The notes under the pieces are model-generated. The model made no database searches. It was not told the origin of the DNA and saw nothing but the letters and a program-made list of their open reading frames with translations. Below are positions 9,041 to 19,808 of a stretch of DNA of 22,539 nt, piece by piece. A program made the position numbers and the translations under genes. Source of the DNA: a virus. Where the stretch lies: IMG/VR virus record IMGVR_UViG_3300017782_000247, positions 1 through 22,539 of that record. One strand, written 5' to 3'. Within the stretch, counting starts at the first letter, position 1. The number at the start of each line of letters is the position of its first letter.

Positions 9041-10015
9041 TTAGTCATCATCCATCAATGACTTAAAGACAGATAAATCATCATCGTCATCAGAAGAAAC
9101 TTTCGGTTCTACATCAAACGGAATGTCGTCATCTAAGAATTCAGACGCAGACTTTTCACGATAGCTATCTCGATAAGTCGATTCAGGTGCAGACTTTTGC
9201 TCTACAGGCTTAGCCTCAACCCGTGGCTTGGGCTTTTCTAGGGAACCTGTTGGAGAAGTTCCTAAAACCTTGAAGAACTTTTCTCTAAGCTCATCGTATG
9301 ACTTAAATTTGTCTGGGGAAACAATCTCTGCAAGAGAATACTGTGTTTTCCAGATAGCGTCTAATTCATCATCGTCCTCAGATACTGAAGATGGGCTTTC
9401 AAATGTAGAGTCATCATATCTCCAATATTTTCTACCACCGTCTCCGGCAATCGAACTGATCCGAATGCGGAAGTTTGCACCTTCCCAAAAGTCAAAAACG
9501 TTTACAGCTTCGTCATCATCATAGATTGGCTTTAACTTTTTGGCGATCATGTCATGGATCTTTTTACCGTACTGATAAAGGAAAACCTTTCCTTCATTTT
9601 CTGGATTTACAGGATCTTTAACGACCAAAATGTTTGAGTAATAGACAAGGCGTCTTTTCTGATCACGGGCCTGTTTACGTTCAGGAGAGTTGTCATTTTC
9701 AGACATATTCCAAAGCTTGGAATTGTATTCTGAAACTGGATCTGGCTCACCTCGACCTAGAGTAGTTCTAGAGTTTTCAACGTAGTATCCACCCGGACCT
9801 TTAATAAAGTGGTTCCAAAGATGGACTACAGGAGACTCTTCGCCCTCTGGTTCTGGTAGGAATCGGATAATGAATTGTCCATTACCATCCTTACCAACTG
9901 AAGGTTTCCAGAATTTTTCTTTATCGTCGTCATAACCACCGTTAAGGCTTTCAACCTTTTTGACGAGATTTTCCATGCTGGATTTACGCTTAGATTTAAG
10001 TTCTTGTATGCTCAT
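9041..10015 (-). CDS. gp32: gp32-like single-stranded DNA binding protein, zinc ligands lost
   Basis: 324 residues (T4 gp32: 301). It coats single-stranded DNA in replication and recombination. Landmarks are NGQFIIRFLPEP (45-56), VHLWNHF (64-70), YSNILVVKDPVNPENEG and KVFLYQYGKKI, close to the T4 core, then FWEGANFRIRI and SPDKFKSYDEL. In T4 zinc is held by His64, Cys77, Cys87 and Cys90; here His69 remains but the cysteine positions read ENSRT and DPVSEYNS, so the zinc site is gone. The N-terminal basic segment (LKSKRKSS) corresponds to the cooperativity domain and the Asp-rich C-terminus (SSDDDDDL ... SLMDDD) to the partner-binding tail. AAGGAAC precedes the ATG. Last gene of the leftward replication block. 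Confidence 0.93.
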   Translation of the reverse strand: MSIQELKSKRKSSMENLVKKVESLNGGYDDDKEKFWKPSVGKDGNGQFIIRFLPEPEGEESPVVHLWNHFIKGPGGYYVENSRTTLGRGEPDPVSEYNSKLWNMSENDNSPERKQARDQKRRLVYYSNILVVKDPVNPENEGKVFLYQYGKKIHDMIAKKLKPIYDDDEAVNVFDFWEGANFRIRISSIAGDGGRKYWRYDDSTFESPSSVSEDDDELDAIWKTQYSLAEIVSPDKFKSYDELREKFFKVLGTSPTGSLEKPKPRVEAKPVEQKSAPESTYRDSYREKSASEFLDDDIPFDVEPKVSSDDDDDLSVFKSLMDDD

Positions 10016-14018: not shown

Positions 14019-14042
14019 ACAATAAACCTATTTAATGTCAAC

Positions 14043-14047
14043 AGGAG
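14043..14047 (+). promoter_or_regulatory. Shine-Dalgarno AGGAG that fixes the Ntn-hydrolase start at 14053
   Basis: AGGAG lies 5 bases before ATG 14053. It would be inside the coding region if the ATG at 14035 were used, and that ATG has no comparable site. This places Cys at residue 2. Confidence 0.75.
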
Positions 14048-14052
14048 TCAAC

Positions 14053-14916
14053 ATGTGTGTTGTAGTTGCAAAATATCTACCGGAATATGGTTGGGTTCTC
14101 GCAAAAAATAGAGATCGTAACTATAAGCCTGTTGTTTCTATTAAACAGTCAAATAGAAACGGTATACAAAGACTGTACATGCAAGATGATAAGACACGTT
14201 ATACTGAAGGTGTAAATGAATATGGCGTAGCTATTCTTTCTGCATCTATCATGGTCAAGAAAGATGAGAAAGAAGGTGTTGCTGCTGGTTCTGATGATCA
14301 ATCTGAAAGAACATATTATGCACCTGATGGTATCAGAATAAGAACTGCTCTCTTTAGAAAGACCGCAAAATCTGCGTTGAATACTCTCATTAAACTACAG
14401 ATTCCCGGCAATACACTTATTGCGGATGATAACGAATGCTATATTCTTGAAGGAGCATTTAAAGATTATCACACAACAAATAAGAAGTATGAGTACACTT
14501 TCAAAAAACTAAAAAAGACAGACGGTATCGTAAGAACTAATCACGGAATTGATATGCCTTGGGCTGGTTATCAGAACAATAAAGATAATCCGCACGAAAA
14601 AGCTTCTCGTAAGTCTTCAGAGACTCGGATGGCGATTGTCTTAAAACAATTAAAATCGATCAAGACACCAGAAGACATGCTACAAGTGCTTTCTTCCAGA
14701 CCAGAAAAAGATCCTCAGATGAACCCTATTCGTATGGATGAAAAAAGAAAGGCAATGAAGACTACAGGTCAATTGCTGTGTATTCCTAAAGAAAGAACCC
14801 TTCATTATCGCCCAACTTATTCTGAAATAACCCTTAAGAATTATAACACTCTTAATAATCAGAAAAGTAAGACATTTTTCGAAGTTATTTCCTCACGCAA
14901 ACTTTTTGATATTTGA
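14053..14916 (+). CDS. Ntn-hydrolase family amidohydrolase (choloylglycine hydrolase/penicillin-V-acylase-like)
   Basis: With the start at 14053 the protein has 287 residues and begins MCVVVAKYLPEYG, so removal of Met exposes Cys2 as N-terminal nucleophile. The motifs that follow fit the linear amide C-N hydrolase fold: WVLAKNRDRNY (N19, D21; compare 'GRN-x-D' in bile salt hydrolases), EGVNEYGVAILSAS (compare 'DG-N-E-GL'), NTLIADDNECYILEG and RTNHGIDMPWAG. Such enzymes cut small amides such as acyl-homoserine lactones, penicillin V or conjugated bile acids. The substrate is unknown here. The ATG at 14035 is in frame but would bury the Cys at residue 8. No signal peptide, so it acts in the cytoplasm or after lysis. 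Confidence 0.82.
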   Translation: MCVVVAKYLPEYGWVLAKNRDRNYKPVVSIKQSNRNGIQRLYMQDDKTRYTEGVNEYGVAILSASIMVKKDEKEGVAAGSDDQSERTYYAPDGIRIRTALFRKTAKSALNTLIKLQIPGNTLIADDNECYILEGAFKDYHTTNKKYEYTFKKLKKTDGIVRTNHGIDMPWAGYQNNKDNPHEKASRKSSETRMAIVLKQLKSIKTPEDMLQVLSSRPEKDPQMNPIRMDEKRKAMKTTGQLLCIPKERTLHYRPTYSEITLKNYNTLNNQKSKTFFEVISSRKLFDI

Positions 14917-14925
14917 GGATATAAA

Positions 14926-15492
14926 ATGATTAAAAAGATTCTATTTGTAATAGCGTTCTTCATGTTTCCTAACATTGCATTTTCACAAACTGATCCAATA
15001 GTAACTGAAAATTACACAGAGAGTACTGTTGATACAACATCAGAATCTACATCGACTATAATTTCAGCACCACCTTCTGCTATTTCACCAAGTATAAATT
15101 CTTCAAATTCAGACTTATGCACAATCGGAATTTCGGGGGCTGTGCAAACACAAATCCTTGGCATATCTGCTGGATCCACCATCAGAGACATGAACTGTGA
15201 AAAGCTTAAAAATGCTAAGACACTATATGATATGGGAATGAAGGTGGCAGCAGTATCAGTAATGTGCCAAGATCCTAGAATTTTTACAGCTATGATGGAT
15301 GCAGGTACACCATGCCCTATCGATGGAATGATTGGCGAACAGGCAAAGACTGAATGGGATAAGCCCATTAACCAAGAACGTAGACCAGACGCACGAAATA
15401 GTGGAGGCATTAATGTTGACCCGGACACTCGTACTACTCTCATCGGCAGTGCTGTTGTTGTTGGCATCTTGGCGTTGCTCTTGGGCGGATAG
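14926..15492 (+). CDS. Exported protein with C-terminal membrane anchor, marine phage family
   Basis: 188 residues. A clear signal peptide (MIKKILFVIAFFMFPNIAFS, cut before Q21) is followed by a Ser/Thr-rich low-complexity region (about 25-65), a conserved-looking core with five cysteines (LCTIGISGAVQT, DMNCEKLKNAKTLYDMGMKVAAVSVMCQ, GTPCPIDG) and a final hydrophobic segment TTLIGSAVVVGILALLLGG. I recall similar proteins in T4-like cyanophages, without known function. GAGGAT precedes the ATG, overlapping the previous stop. The last 80 bases are also read in another frame as the signal peptide of the next gene. Confidence 0.85.
   Translation: MIKKILFVIAFFMFPNIAFSQTDPIVTENYTESTVDTTSESTSTIISAPPSAISPSINSSNSDLCTIGISGAVQTQILGISAGSTIRDMNCEKLKNAKTLYDMGMKVAAVSVMCQDPRIFTAMMDAGTPCPIDGMIGEQAKTEWDKPINQERRPDARNSGGINVDPDTRTTLIGSAVVVGILALLLGG
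15403..15407 (+). promoter_or_regulatory. Shine-Dalgarno GGAGG that fixes the overlapping start at 15413
   Basis: GGAGG five bases before ATG 15413 and inside the upstream gene. It supports initiation within that gene in another frame, and so the overprinted signal peptide. Confidence 0.75.
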
Positions 15493-16327
15493 TATATATG
15501 GTGTAACAAACAACGCCGCACAAAATGCACTTTCTTGGTCAATGACTGGAGTGCTACCAGACTTTTCAGCACCAACAGTTACATTACAAGTAAATGGTGT
15601 TGTCTACTACTACGTTATGACAAAAGAAACAAATGATAATGCTAAGGTCTACGTGCGTAACGTAGATACGGTCAACGGTGGCTACATTTTTGAAGAGGTT
15701 GATGATTGGTCAGGATTACCAAGCAACTCAATTCAAAAGAATTTTAGGTTTACCGGAATACCGGGTGAGCAATGGGGACAGGGTAGTATTACTGTAGAAG
15801 GTGATGGAACTGTCACTGATCCTTCTATGACGTATTCATACAGAATGGATATCGCAGAAGATTCATTAATATGTATTAATCCTCTTTCAAATCCATCATG
15901 TCCCGGTTTTTTGGATGCTGTTTATAAATACCTAAACAGTATTACTGAGATAAACGCCGACAATGACCTTTACGAATACTGGCTAGAATTACAAGAAGAA
16001 AAAGGTGTTAAAAACGAAAGTGAAAACTTAGTTGTTTTAGAAGAATCAAACGATGAACTTCAAACACTTTTAATGACAGACCCTTCTGTTGGTGGATTGG
16101 TTGACCTAAAACAACAGAATAACACCTTTAAAGAACTTTCTAATATTACTCTAATTAATCCATATTATGATGTTGAGTTTGATAGTAATGAATATTCTGA
16201 TAAATATGAAATCGAAGATGAACAATTACCTGATAATAACAGGGCGTTGAGGCAACTGGCACGAAGTGCCAAATATTATTCTATGGTACGCTCTCAATAT
16301 GATAGAGAAGAATTAACCGGAGAATAA
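15413..16327 (+). CDS. Exported protein of unknown function whose signal peptide overlaps the upstream gene
   Basis: Starting at 15413 (GGAGG five bases upstream) gives 304 residues. The first 26 form a signal peptide: MLTRTLVLLSSAVLLLLASW then RCSWA, cut before DSIYG. An earlier ATG at 15332 would add 27 residues that hide the signal peptide and has no ribosome binding site. The mature protein starts with a beta-rich region (VTLQVNGVVYYYVMTKE, GSITVEGDGTVTDP), has two cysteines (ICINPLSNPSCPG) and ends in an acidic helical part with ALRQLARSAKYYSMV. It overlaps the previous gene by 80 bases. Function unknown; probably acts in the periplasm or at the cell surface. Confidence 0.83.
   Translation: MLTRTLVLLSSAVLLLLASWRCSWADSIYGVTNNAAQNALSWSMTGVLPDFSAPTVTLQVNGVVYYYVMTKETNDNAKVYVRNVDTVNGGYIFEEVDDWSGLPSNSIQKNFRFTGIPGEQWGQGSITVEGDGTVTDPSMTYSYRMDIAEDSLICINPLSNPSCPGFLDAVYKYLNSITEINADNDLYEYWLELQEEKGVKNESENLVVLEESNDELQTLLMTDPSVGGLVDLKQQNNTFKELSNITLINPYYDVEFDSNEYSDKYEIEDEQLPDNNRALRQLARSAKYYSMVRSQYDREELTGE
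15923..15930 (+). promoter_or_regulatory. Possible internal late promoter (TATAAATA)
   Basis: Exact match to the late box inside the preceding gene, about 400 bases before the pilin-like gene at 16331; it also encodes part of VYKYLN. It could give separate late expression of the pilin- and chaperone-like pair. A chance match is quite possible. Confidence 0.3.
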
Positions 16328-16330
16328 AAA

Positions 16331-16828
16331 ATGTTAAGAACTACTTTCATGCTATCTGCTATTTTTATAGCAGGAATTTCTAGTGCAGAAAATGTTCCGA
16401 TTACAGGAAACGTGTCCTCAAAATGTAGCATTTACACGGATACTGCTGGCGTATATGGAAACCCAACTCCCGATTCGTTAAGCACAGATCCTGTGGATGG
16501 AGGAATATTCCCTGTCGTTCGTTTCGACGTTACATCAGCAGACTATTATAAGGCTAAAGTTTCTTGGCCACAATCGTTTGCGTCTTCCCCAACTTTAACT
16601 GATGCTCTTAATTGGGACGGAGAAGTAACAGTATCACAGACATCTAATGCAGCACAATCTGGTTACGAAACTGATAAAGTTGAATACGAAAACGTAACTG
16701 AATATGATCTAACGCAGTCTGGTGCTGTATGGTTTCAGATCGATTCGGAAGTATCCTACGGTGCAGGAAAGTCTTTTCCGGGCGGTCAGTACTCTGCAAA
16801 TATAACCGCAGAGTGTATTGCAAAGTAA
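16331..16828 (+). CDS. Exported pilin-like / spore-coat-U-like beta protein
   Basis: 165 residues with a signal peptide (MLRTTFMLSAIFIAGISSA, cut before ENVP). The mature part looks like a small all-beta subunit: VPITGNVSSKCSIY at the start, alternating hydrophobic strands (VVRFDVTSADYYKAKVSW, GAVWFQIDSEVSYG) and a C-terminal strand YSANITAECIAK. One cysteine near each end fits the disulfide that links the first and last strands in fimbrial and CsuA/spore-coat-U domains. GGAG nine bases upstream is the ribosome binding site, and the stop overlaps the next ATG (TAATG). The pilin comparison is inference; the export signal is clear. Confidence 0.82.
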   Translation: MLRTTFMLSAIFIAGISSAENVPITGNVSSKCSIYTDTAGVYGNPTPDSLSTDPVDGGIFPVVRFDVTSADYYKAKVSWPQSFASSPTLTDALNWDGEVTVSQTSNAAQSGYETDKVEYENVTEYDLTQSGAVWFQIDSEVSYGAGKSFPGGQYSANITAECIAK

Positions 16829-17202
16829 TGAAGACCTTCATTGTAGCAGTGGTGACATTATTGATGTCTACTACCGCTAATGCCCATGAATGGACACCCA
16901 CTTATCCTAAATTTAGTCCATCCTTCCTAGAAGGCGTGGTTACAACAACTATGACTCTTTTTAATAAAAGAAAAGACATAGAATACTATGAGGTTTCTGT
17001 ATTTGACAAAGACTGGAAAACAATTCCTTTTGCGGCAAATTATAAAATAGTGAACGTACCATACTTAGGTCGTAAAACTATTAAAATTTACTTAAGAGAG
17101 ATAGATTGTGATCGTATTGAATACATATGTACGTCTTCTAAAAGAGTTTTAGAAGACAGCGTTTCATCTGGAATTGATTCTAGAATATGTTCAAAGGTGT
17201 AG
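16828..17202 (+). CDS. Exported small protein resembling the N-terminal domain of periplasmic pilus chaperones
   Basis: The start at 16828 overlaps the pilin-like stop (TAATG) and gives 124 residues with a signal peptide (MKTFIVAVVTLLMSTTANA, cut before HEW). The mature part has an Ig-like pattern: FLEGVVTTTMTLFNKRKDIEYYEVSVFDKDW, then NYKIVNVPYLGRKTIKIYLR (in part) and ICTSSKRV. This follows PapD-type first domains (a 'v.l.N.....y..q..v....' strand pair, then 'pp.....pg....vRv.l'). The second Ig domain of a true chaperone is absent. Coupling to the pilin-like gene supports a partner role. An 11-bp inverted repeat lies near its 3' end. Confidence 0.8.
   Translation: MKTFIVAVVTLLMSTTANAHEWTPTYPKFSPSFLEGVVTTTMTLFNKRKDIEYYEVSVFDKDWKTIPFAANYKIVNVPYLGRKTIKIYLREIDCDRIEYICTSSKRVLEDSVSSGIDSRICSKV
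17133..17157. repeat. Perfect 11-bp hairpin with 3-base loop in the chaperone-like gene
   Basis: Arms GTCTTCTAAAA (17133-17143) and TTTTAGAAGAC (17147-17157) around GAG. It lies 45 bases before the stop and about 50 bases before the next start. No T-run follows; an RNA stability or attenuation role is possible. Confidence 0.8.
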
Positions 17203-17204
17203 TT

Positions 17205-17639
17205 ATGAACAGATATAATTTTATTAAACTAATTTTATTGTCTCTAGTAATTATTTTGTTTTGGTCTTCTGTCTCATTTGGACAATCAAGTAGTTCTTTA
17301 AATCTATCGATACCGACTGCTCCGGGAAGTTACCAATCAGACAGATTCAAAGCTGGTGATCTAGACTGCACTAACGCAATTGGTTCTGCTACTAATTTAG
17401 AATTTGGCGTAACAGGAATTATTGGTAGAGGATATACAGATCCTCTGAATGGTTACGTTGACTCAAGGGTAGGTGACGTTGGTGTTTTTGCTCGAATTAT
17501 TATTCCATTAGGCAAAAAACCTAAGTCTAGAGTGGATTGCAACAGGCTATATGAACTTGAACTGCGAAAAAAGCAGCTTGAAGTAATGAGACTAGAACAA
17601 GAAATTCAACAACTTAGAGCCTTACAATTTCAAGGCTAA
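17205..17639 (+). CDS. Exported small protein with C-terminal coiled coil, marine phage family
   Basis: I prefer the ATG at 17205, two bases after the upstream stop, with AAAGGTG in front (144 residues); ATG 17187 is possible and adds six residues. The signal peptide ends at SVSFG before Q. The mature part has GDLDCTNAIGSATNLEFGVTG, VGVFARIIIPLGKKPKSRVDC and a helical C-terminus LRKKQLEVMRLEQEIQQLRAL that should form a coiled coil. Two cysteines could pair. The motif FARIIIPLG recalls outer-membrane-barrel-like strands, and related proteins occur in cyanophages as I recall. Function unknown. Confidence 0.8.
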   Translation: MNRYNFIKLILLSLVIILFWSSVSFGQSSSSLNLSIPTAPGSYQSDRFKAGDLDCTNAIGSATNLEFGVTGIIGRGYTDPLNGYVDSRVGDVGVFARIIIPLGKKPKSRVDCNRLYELELRKKQLEVMRLEQEIQQLRALQFQG

Positions 17640-17650
17640 TGGAGATAACT

Positions 17651-18094
17651 ATGTACGAATATAAATGCAAAATTCTTAAGGTGGTTGACGGTGATACTGT
17701 AGATATTGATATAGATCTTGGATTTGGTGTGTGGATGCACAAAGAAAGAGTTAGAATGATGGGTATTGATACCCCAGAATCTAGAACAAGAGACTTAGTA
17801 GAAAAACAATTTGGTCTAGCTAGTAAAGATAGACTAAAAGAAATTCTTCCCGTTGGGTCTTCTCAAATTCTAAAAACTGAAATTGATAGAAGTGGAGAAG
17901 ACGCAAAAGGTAAGTTTGGTCGTATCCTTGGCGACTTTTTGATTGAAGAAAAAAGAGCTACAGAAATCCTTATCGAAGAGGGTCATGCCGTTCCTTATCA
18001 TGGTCAGAGCAAGGATGACGTTCACGTACAGCATATGGCTAACAGAGAGCGTCTTATAAACGAAGGTAAAATAACTCTTGAAGGAGAAAAATAA
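17651..18094 (+). CDS. Staphylococcal-nuclease-type (thermonuclease) nuclease
   Basis: The start at 17651 (GGAG six bases upstream) gives 147 residues; an ATG at 17639 is in frame but lacks a site. All catalytic landmarks of the SNase family are present: VVDGDTVDI (D15, the calcium ligand), R35 in RVRMMGIDTPE, D40, T41, E43, and R91 in KFGRILGDF. It cleaves DNA and RNA in a calcium-dependent way in the family. There is no signal peptide, so unlike its exported neighbours it should stay in the cytoplasm. Plausible roles are host DNA breakdown or nucleotide scavenging. Confidence 0.92.
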   Translation: MYEYKCKILKVVDGDTVDIDIDLGFGVWMHKERVRMMGIDTPESRTRDLVEKQFGLASKDRLKEILPVGSSQILKTEIDRSGEDAKGKFGRILGDFLIEEKRATEILIEEGHAVPYHGQSKDDVHVQHMANRERLINEGKITLEGEK

Positions 18095-18325: not shown

Positions 18326-18655
18326 ATGGCCGGTAAAACATTACAACAAGATTCGATATATAATCAATTCGATGTTGATGGTGACGGTGTACTAACCGAC
18401 GAAGAAATGGCTAGAGGTGAGAAACTTATTCAGATTGAGAATGAAGATAAGAGACAAGACGCACAAAGAAACATGGCATGGTTTGCATTGGGTGGAATGT
18501 TACTTTATCCATTTGCAATTATCCTAGCTAGTGTCCTTGGATTTGAAGGTGCATCTGGTCTTTTGAAAGATATTGCACCTACATACTTTGTATCTGTTGC
18601 AGCTATTGTTGCTGCTTTCTATGGTAAAGAGGCTTTAACAGCAAACAAAAAATGA
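18326..18655 (+). CDS. Membrane protein with a perfect EF-hand, holin-like candidate
   Basis: 109 residues. Residues 16-27, DVDGDGVLTDEE, are a textbook calcium-binding EF-hand loop (D1, D3, D5, G6, hydrophobic 8, T9, E12). They are followed by a charged linker and two membrane segments (MAWFALGGMLLYPFAIILAS, about 50-69, and FVSVAAIVAAFYG, about 88-100). TAGGAGG five bases before the ATG is an almost ideal ribosome binding site, suggesting strong translation. A single EF-hand in front of two membrane helices could make the protein calcium-responsive. Holin or envelope sensor roles are speculative. Confidence 0.85.
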   Translation: MAGKTLQQDSIYNQFDVDGDGVLTDEEMARGEKLIQIENEDKRQDAQRNMAWFALGGMLLYPFAIILASVLGFEGASGLLKDIAPTYFVSVAAIVAAFYGKEALTANKK

Positions 18656-19275
18656 TTTCAATTTACGAAGATACAGAAGAAGATCTATATTGGAAAACTG
18701 CGGACCCAGATGAACTGTGGGTGGTGGATAAACTTATCCTATCACGTAAACTTGGTTACATCTGTGGTCCGGTAGGAACTGATGTTCCAGAGCCAAATCA
18801 TTATATTGTTAGACCATGTGTTAACGCACTCGGTCTTGGTCTTGGTGCTAAAAAACTTTGGATTGAAAAGTATACGTTAAACTTAAATGTTGGCCACTTT
18901 TGGTGTGAGTGGTTTGAGGGTAGACATCTATCAGTAGATTATGAGTACGGCCAACAGTCTCTTTGCGTAGAAGGAATTAAGTCAGAAGATACATTTGTTA
19001 AATGGGATCGATGGGTAAAGACAGACGATCAAGTACCTTTTCCTGAACTATTAGAAGAGTTTAAAGATAAGCCCAAAATAAACTGCGAATTTATTGGCGG
19101 AAAACTAATTGAGGTGCATTTTAGATCTAATCCTGATTTTCGCAAAAACATCTCAGAATTTATTCCTGTCTGGAAAGAACAACAAACATCTCCTCCAAAT
19201 GGGTATGATTACATAGAAGACCCTGACATTCATGATAGAATAGGAGCATTTGTGAAATGGCAGAAAAAGATTTAG
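18652..19275 (+). CDS. Conserved marine-phage protein, possibly ATP-grasp-like
   Basis: 207 residues; the ATG overlaps the previous stop (ATGA). I recognise a pattern common in marine T4-like phages: ELWVVDKLILSRKLGY, GPVGTDVPEPNHYIVRPCVNALGLG, GHFWCEWFEGRHLSVDYEYG and INCEFIGGKLIEVHFRSNPDF. The 'YIVRP...G.G' glycine-rich loop and the late 'C-E-F-I-G-x-K-L-I-E-V-H-x-R' acidic strand resemble the nucleotide- and metal-binding parts of ATP-grasp ligases, but the protein is shorter than most of them. If right, it would join a carboxylate to an amine or thiol using ATP. Confidence in that is low. Confidence 0.82.
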   Translation: MISIYEDTEEDLYWKTADPDELWVVDKLILSRKLGYICGPVGTDVPEPNHYIVRPCVNALGLGLGAKKLWIEKYTLNLNVGHFWCEWFEGRHLSVDYEYGQQSLCVEGIKSEDTFVKWDRWVKTDDQVPFPELLEEFKDKPKINCEFIGGKLIEVHFRSNPDFRKNISEFIPVWKEQQTSPPNGYDYIEDPDIHDRIGAFVKWQKKI

Positions 19276-19808
19276 GTGACGAATTAGAAAAATTAGAAGA
19301 TGGTATTGAGAATCTTAAAAACAAACAGTTTAAAATTCTCGGAATAAAAGTTACTGCAATTACTGCGGGTGCAGCATTTGGTGTTTTCAGTACTGTTATT
19401 GGTGGTCTTTATGGCGCATTCACTGTTTACAACGATTACATGGATATGAAAGATATGATAACAACATATGTTGCACCAGATCTTTCAGGTATCGAAGAGC
19501 AGCTTTCTGTTATTCAAGAACAAATGAATGCAACTGAAGATGCAGTTCTTCAGGCTACTGACTATGCCAGAGATATTAGAAATGATTTAAAGGGCGATGT
19601 TATCAGAGTAGAAGACTTGGTTGACCGTCTCAAAGATGACGTTAGATCATCCGAAAAAGAAATTAGAGAAATGATCGACTTGGCGGATCAAAGATTCGAC
19701 AACAAACGAGATCAGTTATATCAAGACACAGATAGAGAAATGAGAGAATTAGAAAGAAGAATGAACGATAAAATACAGATGTCGTTAGACAATCCACTTT
19801 CTAACTAA
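19257..19808 (+). CDS. Membrane-anchored coiled-coil protein
   Basis: 183 residues, overlapping the previous gene by 19 bases. An acidic N-terminus with a short helix (LEKLEDGIENLKNKQF) precedes one hydrophobic segment, about residues 28-55 (VTAITAGAAFGVFSTVIGGL and following). Residues about 75-178 are a long, highly charged helix with heptad-like spacing (VEDLVDRLKDDV, EMRELERRMNDKI), so a rod-like trimer or dimer is likely. It could form a spanin-like or envelope-spanning structure, but there is no lipobox or signal-arrest sequence of a known type. It ends in an 8-base overlap with a convergent gene. Confidence 0.83.
   Translation: MAEKDLGDELEKLEDGIENLKNKQFKILGIKVTAITAGAAFGVFSTVIGGLYGAFTVYNDYMDMKDMITTYVAPDLSGIEEQLSVIQEQMNATEDAVLQATDYARDIRNDLKGDVIRVEDLVDRLKDDVRSSEKEIREMIDLADQRFDNKRDQLYQDTDREMRELERRMNDKIQMSLDNPLSN

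Follow-up and report, generated by a model that had tools for sequence, protein, structure and literature searches.

We analysed a 22.5-kb virus record (IMG/VR IMGVR_UViG_3300017782_000247), referred to as the window, with respect to five consecutive + strand genes, g1 to g5, which overlap or abut one another at positions 14926-17639. The window stems from a T4-like marine phage, since T4-type genes are recognisable, for example that of the single-stranded DNA-binding protein at 9041-10015. Cultured phages are distant from it; the protein encoded at 1038-2294 is matched only at 22%, in a Synechococcus phage. Sec signal peptides were sought in 34 genes of the window by crude features, namely charge at the start, a run of hydrophobic residues and small residues at the cleavage site. 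This screen was positive for g1 to g5 and gave one weak, uncharged false positive in the upstream gene g0. The signal peptides persist in distant relatives although their letters have changed.

The conservation of the locus was determined at 90 distinct IMG/VR loci with g3, using as denominators the loci with enough flanking sequence. This comparison revealed g1 at 78/78, g2 at 82/82, g4 at 84/84 and g5 at 83/83 loci, and the order g1-g2-g3-g4-g5-g10 was invariable. The neighbours outside this unit were variable (g0 9/68, g6 19/67, g7 24/67, g8 29/57). Because the neighbours change while g1 to g5 are kept in order, the five-gene module is real and not a product of chance. Thus, g1 to g5 form a single conserved operon for five proteins with Sec signal peptides, and the signal-peptide screen together with the order at the 90 loci confirms this part of the original prediction. 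The proposed extent of five genes holds for g1 to g5 themselves but is too narrow, since g10 belongs to the marine conserved unit as its sixth member (76/78); the core common to different phage groups is the trio g3-g4-g5. Median ratios of nonsynonymous to synonymous substitution (dN/dS) relative to the window lie between 0.06 and 0.25. When viral contigs were scanned, g3 was found at 34 loci and g4 at 44; a search with the g3 alignment raised the number of loci with a g3 relative to at least 593.

The structures of g3 and g4 were predicted with AlphaFold2 from family alignments and compared with the PDB using Foldseek. The g4 model (pLDDT 88.0, pTM 0.74) found the chaperones FaeE, DraB, SfaE, FimC and Caf1M as top matches, with an E-value of 2.2e-4 and TM-scores up to 0.63. 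PapD-family chaperones accounted for 10 of the 11 PDB matches at E <= 0.001 and for 29 of the best 32. The matching part is the fold of the PapD N-terminal domain; g4 is a single domain of 124 residues, whereas the bacterial chaperones have two domains. At the fold level the g4 model shows one PapD-like domain.

The g3 model (pLDDT 89.2, pTM 0.77; residues 20-32 are its lower-confidence part) matched best the pilin CfaB (4y2l) with an E-value of 1.2e-3, a probability of 1.00 and a TM-score of about 0.4. Among its best 50 matches were 12 chaperone-usher pilin chains, including the PapG pilin domain, FimG and CsuA/B, besides other beta-sandwich proteins. By itself this result is suggestive and not conclusive; at the fold level the predicted structure is that of a pilin-like domain. 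A fold search with g3 among viral structures was uninformative. The original prediction had described g3 and g4 as a pilin-like and chaperone-like pair and had named the absence of an Ig-like or pilin fold as the outcome that would speak against it. Structure prediction returned such folds, and the pair is borne out by the fold comparison. The interpretation is partly supported: the folds agree with it, and the suggested functions, a surface structure or a block of host pili, are candidates. The narrower description of g3 as a pilin or spore-coat-U subunit stands for the resemblance to chaperone-usher pilins in general. Membership in the spore-coat-U family was rejected, as there was no Pfam SCPU match among the 36 alignment members.

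A comparison of the g3 profile with 16 E. coli K-12 pilins by hhalign was weak (24%), and the sole aligned stretch was the donor strand, which placed the phage sequence AENVPITGNVS-SKCSI on FimA GGTVHFKGEVVNAACAV. A strict motif for this strand (hydrophobic-x-hydrophobic-x-G-x-aliphatic, three or four residues, Cys) was present in 27/36 marine g3 proteins and 9/16 K-12 pilins, and in one of 1,520 other open reading frames (ORFs). The loose form was found in 30/36 marine g3 proteins, 13/16 K-12 pilins, all six relatives from Vibrio phages and two of the 1,520 other ORFs. Moreover, position -14 relative to the C-terminus is a glycine in 42/42 phage proteins, and this glycine is near-invariant in the K-12 pilins. 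The mature phage proteins of the g3 type contain exactly two cysteines (42/42).

Several observations weigh against a pilin-like g3 served by a chaperone-like g4. The fold matches of g3 are moderate, none of them reaching E <= 0.001. The donor-strand motif was written after the alignment had been seen, and the background ORFs include non-exported proteins; therefore the motif figures are a measure of specificity rather than the outcome of a blind test. The phage g3 proteins lack the penultimate tyrosine known from bacterial pilins, and the two cysteines of the phage proteins link the start and the end of the domain, unlike those of FimA. Beyond the signal peptide and the donor strand, neither g3 nor g4 has a sequence-profile link to bacterial pilins or chaperones. 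The alignment of the Vibrio-phage chaperone profile with that of K-12 was weak (8.8% probability), although it covered most of the length and placed GKACAKLRLYW on SRIKLFYRP. In this alignment the basic anchor residue Arg8 of the pair Arg8 and Lys112 has no clear counterpart, and the Vibrio-phage proteins end soon after the GKACAKLRLYW strand. As a sign of chaperone kinship the alignment is a lead, not a proof.

One may ask whether g3 and g4 resemble pilins and chaperones by coincidence, because small beta-sandwich folds look alike. Such a chance likeness would fit the modest Foldseek E-values, 1e-3 to 1e-4, and the absence of a Pfam or PDB sequence match. However, two genes that lie side by side each resemble a different member of a working protein pair, the two are conserved together in a pair of divergent phage families, and the donor-strand motif is rare in other ORFs, so that we regard a coincidence as most unlikely. 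The features of the locus are collected in Table 1.

Table 1. Coordinates of the conserved genes and of two segments of g3 in the window.
Feature	Positions	Strand	Description	Basis
g1	14926..15492	+	188 residues; signal peptide, Ser/Thr-rich linker, conserved cysteine-containing domain, C-terminal hydrophobic helix	
g2	15413..16327	+	exported (signal peptide) protein of 304 residues, fold unknown, two invariant cysteines	
g3	16331..16828	+	165 residues; exported (signal peptide), pilin-like	AlphaFold2, Foldseek, family alignment
g3 residues 20-32, ENVPITGNVSSKC	16388..16426	+	putative donor-strand extension and first cysteine	hhalign with FimA-type donor strand, motif test
g3 residues 152-165, GQYSANITAECIAK	16784..16825	+	C-terminal strand; Gly at -14, second cysteine	
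g4	16828..17202	+	124 residues; exported (signal peptide), single-domain PapD-like chaperone	AlphaFold2, Foldseek
g5	17205..17639	+	signal peptide, two-cysteine beta-rich region, C-terminal coiled coil; constant partner of g3-g4	
g10	19257..19808	+	one transmembrane helix and coiled coil, C-terminus NPLSN; sixth gene of the marine unit	

The start of g2 was set at ATG 15413, which leads straight into the signal peptide, in contrast to the upstream TTG at 15332. In many relatives the start of g2 appears to be TTG. On the same strand but in different frames, g1 and g2 share the 80 nt at 15413-15492, where the C-terminal hydrophobic helix of g1 coincides with the signal peptide of g2. Such an overlap is also common among relatives, where its median length, measured between the aligned parts, is 64 nt. 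The stop of g3 and the start of g4 overlap in TAATG, and the alternative start of g5, ATG 17187, contributes just six more residues. Upstream of the module, g0 (14035-14916) has a weak likeness to acyl-CoA:6-aminopenicillanic acid acyltransferases (Pfam AAT, E 0.012, below the cut-off). Directly 3' of the module lies a staphylococcal-nuclease-like gene (17639-18094; Pfam SNase, E 6e-11), which is found near 19/67 relatives only. The product of g8 (18326-18655) has an EF-hand-like motif and two hydrophobic stretches and is 72% identical to HTVC008M gp021, whose gene adjoins the tape-measure gene there.

The g1 domain was found also in pelagiphages and roseophages, and g10 has a relative in HTVC115P; g2 showed no similarity to the exported protein of Mosig. 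In the pelagiphages Mosig, HTVC115P and HTVC023P, the genes that come after g1 encode an exported protein, large and acidic, as well as proteins with transmembrane helices and coiled coils, and g3 to g5 are missing (L073 1250-4313, L074 5845-8966, L173 5767-8346). Several of these proteins end in NPL[SA], as g10 does.

When g3 and g4 of the window were used as tblastn queries against 50,697 cultured phage records, no match was obtained, and sequence searches with g3, g4 and g5 against Pfam, PHROGs and the PDB found only unnamed PHROGs and no named family. More divergent relatives as queries revealed a link to Vibrio phages. Vibrio phage pVco-14 carries counterparts of g3, g4 and g5 as three neighbouring genes. 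Matches of this type were found for g3 in 179 records and for g4 in 179, all of them Vibrio phages, and for g5 in 183 Vibrio records. The trio as a whole recurs in some 179 phages of Vibrio, siphophages and T5-like ones. The carriers inspected comprise 59-60-kb phages (two of them Queuovirinae), 79-85-kb siphophages and T5-like Demerecviridae. Profile-profile comparison of the marine with the Vibrio family gave E-values of 3.7e-9 for g3, 1.5e-8 for g4 and 2e-13 for g5, with g3 and g4 aligned over nearly their full length. The trio g3-g4-g5 is the part common to unrelated phage groups and the mobile core of the module, which is thereby more widespread than the original prediction could show.

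Homologues of g5 occur also in phages of Klebsiella, Raoultella, Stenotrophomonas and Erwinia and in a Vibrio jumbo phage, with myophages of Klebsiella, Erwinia and Vibrio among them; the profile of this group matched marine g5 with an E-value of 1e-18. Where inspected in this group, g5 stands beside exported proteins of about 110-130 and about 155-170 residues, the sizes of g4 and g3, for which the comparison did not show homology to g4 and g3. The main text of the paper on Klebsiella phage Kp24 contains no proteomics terms (PMC9700779). A g5 scan of one genome per species for 84,980 bacterial and archaeal species found six contigs from three metagenome-assembled genomes only. These are probably binned phage contigs, since each bears other cassette genes. 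At this search sensitivity the g5 family appears to be restricted to phages.

In the Vibrio phages inspected, the trio lies directly 3' of a fibre-like gene for 770-860 residues without a signal peptide. This position would suit proteins that are produced in the oxidising periplasm and, once the cell has lysed, attach to the virion and decorate the head or tail fibres, as would the fusion of g5 to a non-exported N-terminal domain in Vibrio phage VF16. No such fibre linkage exists in the marine T4-like, Klebsiella and Erwinia phages, where the neighbours are variable or non-structural, and virion decoration is distinctly unlikely in our judgement. VF16 (L078 4764-5475) carries only g5 of the trio, in this fused form, and a small lipoprotein-like ORF follows it. 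Small lipoprotein-like ORFs of the SCTINLQIDTDYA type are located 3' of g5 in several Vibrio phages (L077 7068-7280, L079 5359-5517).

In pVp-1 and Ceto the trio is followed by holin and endolysin genes, and in other phages g1 relatives have lysozyme or peptidase genes in their vicinity. Both arrangements would be expected of a lysis module whose exported proteins disturb the outer membrane late in infection. However, sequence searches with g1 to g5 revealed no similarity to lysis proteins, the relative L067 has a separate spanin-like pair and VF16 an annotated Rz-like spanin. We consider a function in lysis very unlikely. With two-component spanins (Rz/Rz1) the module has in common small exported phage proteins with a coiled coil; it differs from them in the beta-sandwich folds of g3 and g4 and in signal peptides without a visible lipobox in g1 to g5, whereas such spanins combine a coiled-coil protein of the inner membrane with a lipoprotein of the outer membrane. 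An assignment of the module as spanins is unlikely given the separate spanin-like proteins of L067 and VF16.

The module was also compared with the bacterial chaperone-usher pathway (FimC/FimA type, including alternate CFA/I and archaic Csu). Like this pathway, it has exported pilin-like and PapD-like neighbours, the donor-strand motif and the glycine at -14. It differs in the one-domain chaperone, the missing penultimate tyrosine, the cysteine pairing, the extra constant partner g5, the lytic phages as carriers and the lack of a detectable usher. A search for the usher family (PF00577) found no member in 13 phage records, of which six were whole records from Vibrio phages and the marine ones were fragments; the E. 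coli control was positive. Since neither an usher nor a two-domain chaperone was found when both were looked for, the module falls outside the chaperone-usher pathway. Nevertheless, it probably works like a chaperone-pilin pair.

In the absence of an usher, the known route of classical pilus secretion is closed to the pair. This would be understandable if g3 and g4 were exported proteins of Ig-like fold whose action requires no donor-strand exchange; they might, for instance, be a periplasmic inhibitor that mimics a pilin and a chaperone domain and thereby blocks host pili, secretion or receptors. Bacteria do have pilin-like inhibitors and terminators, FimI among them, and 7b0w is among the Foldseek matches of g4. 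On the other hand, g5 invariably accompanies the pair, the donor-strand motif suggests polymer chemistry, and chaperone-usher pili are not known from marine hosts with streamlined genomes. This alternative is unlikely. The module also recalls T5 Llp, a receptor-blocking lipoprotein: in both cases phage protein is sent to the envelope, and the genes are close to those for receptor binding. This is a functional analogy only; g1 to g5 are several proteins, no lipobox was seen in them, and no similarity to Llp is known.

Exported fibre modules are known from phages in the form of curli (type VIII secretion), which are carried by pelagimyophages and HTVC023P-type phages and whose function is debated between sibling capture, superinfection defence and lysis control (PMC7029224, PMC9599517, PMC9004378). 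The module resembles phage curli as an exported fibre-type module of marine phages which is kept as an operon and common to several phage families. An assignment as curli was rejected: Pfam searches found no CsgG, CsgF or curlin similarity in g1 to g5, and HTVC008M has curli and lacks g1 to g5, its curli cluster being a different gene set.

Taken together, we propose that g1 to g5 constitute a phage-encoded, usher-less chaperone-pilin module whose assembly alters the envelope of the infected cell, a reading that we hold to be about evenly balanced between right and wrong. Exported g4 would lend a strand to g3 and complete its open fold (donor-strand complementation). Subsequently, g3 would be handed on via its own N-terminal strand to another g3, to g5 or to g2 (donor-strand exchange), and a small assembly would be built in the periplasm or outer membrane. 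In this scheme g5 may replace the usher as anchor or platform, and g1, g2 and g10 would be accessories of the marine version. The most likely role, which we suggest with low confidence, is an alteration of the envelope that masks receptors against other phages or released progeny. We favour it because the proteins are destined for the envelope, the module occurs in phages of unrelated hosts and fibre genes are adjacent in Vibrio phages. More tentatively, the module could represent a new class of self-contained fibre or surface system in T4-like, T5-like, siphovirus and possibly jumbo lineages, which would build a pilus-like structure on or within the infected cell's envelope and in which the one-domain chaperone and the coiled-coil protein g5 serve in place of an usher.

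Machinery of this kind has so far been known from bacteria, and searches of open-licence papers found no description of a phage-encoded pilin/chaperone system. If the proposal is correct, lytic phages would own a periplasmic assembly line, in which only a pilin-like subunit and a single-domain chaperone are left, and its carriers would include hundreds of marine virus contigs as well as cultured Vibrio phages. It would be the second phage-borne exported fibre system after curli and a minimal model of donor-strand chemistry without an usher. The cultured carrier phages would allow direct study of receptor masking, superinfection exclusion, aggregation and virion decoration.

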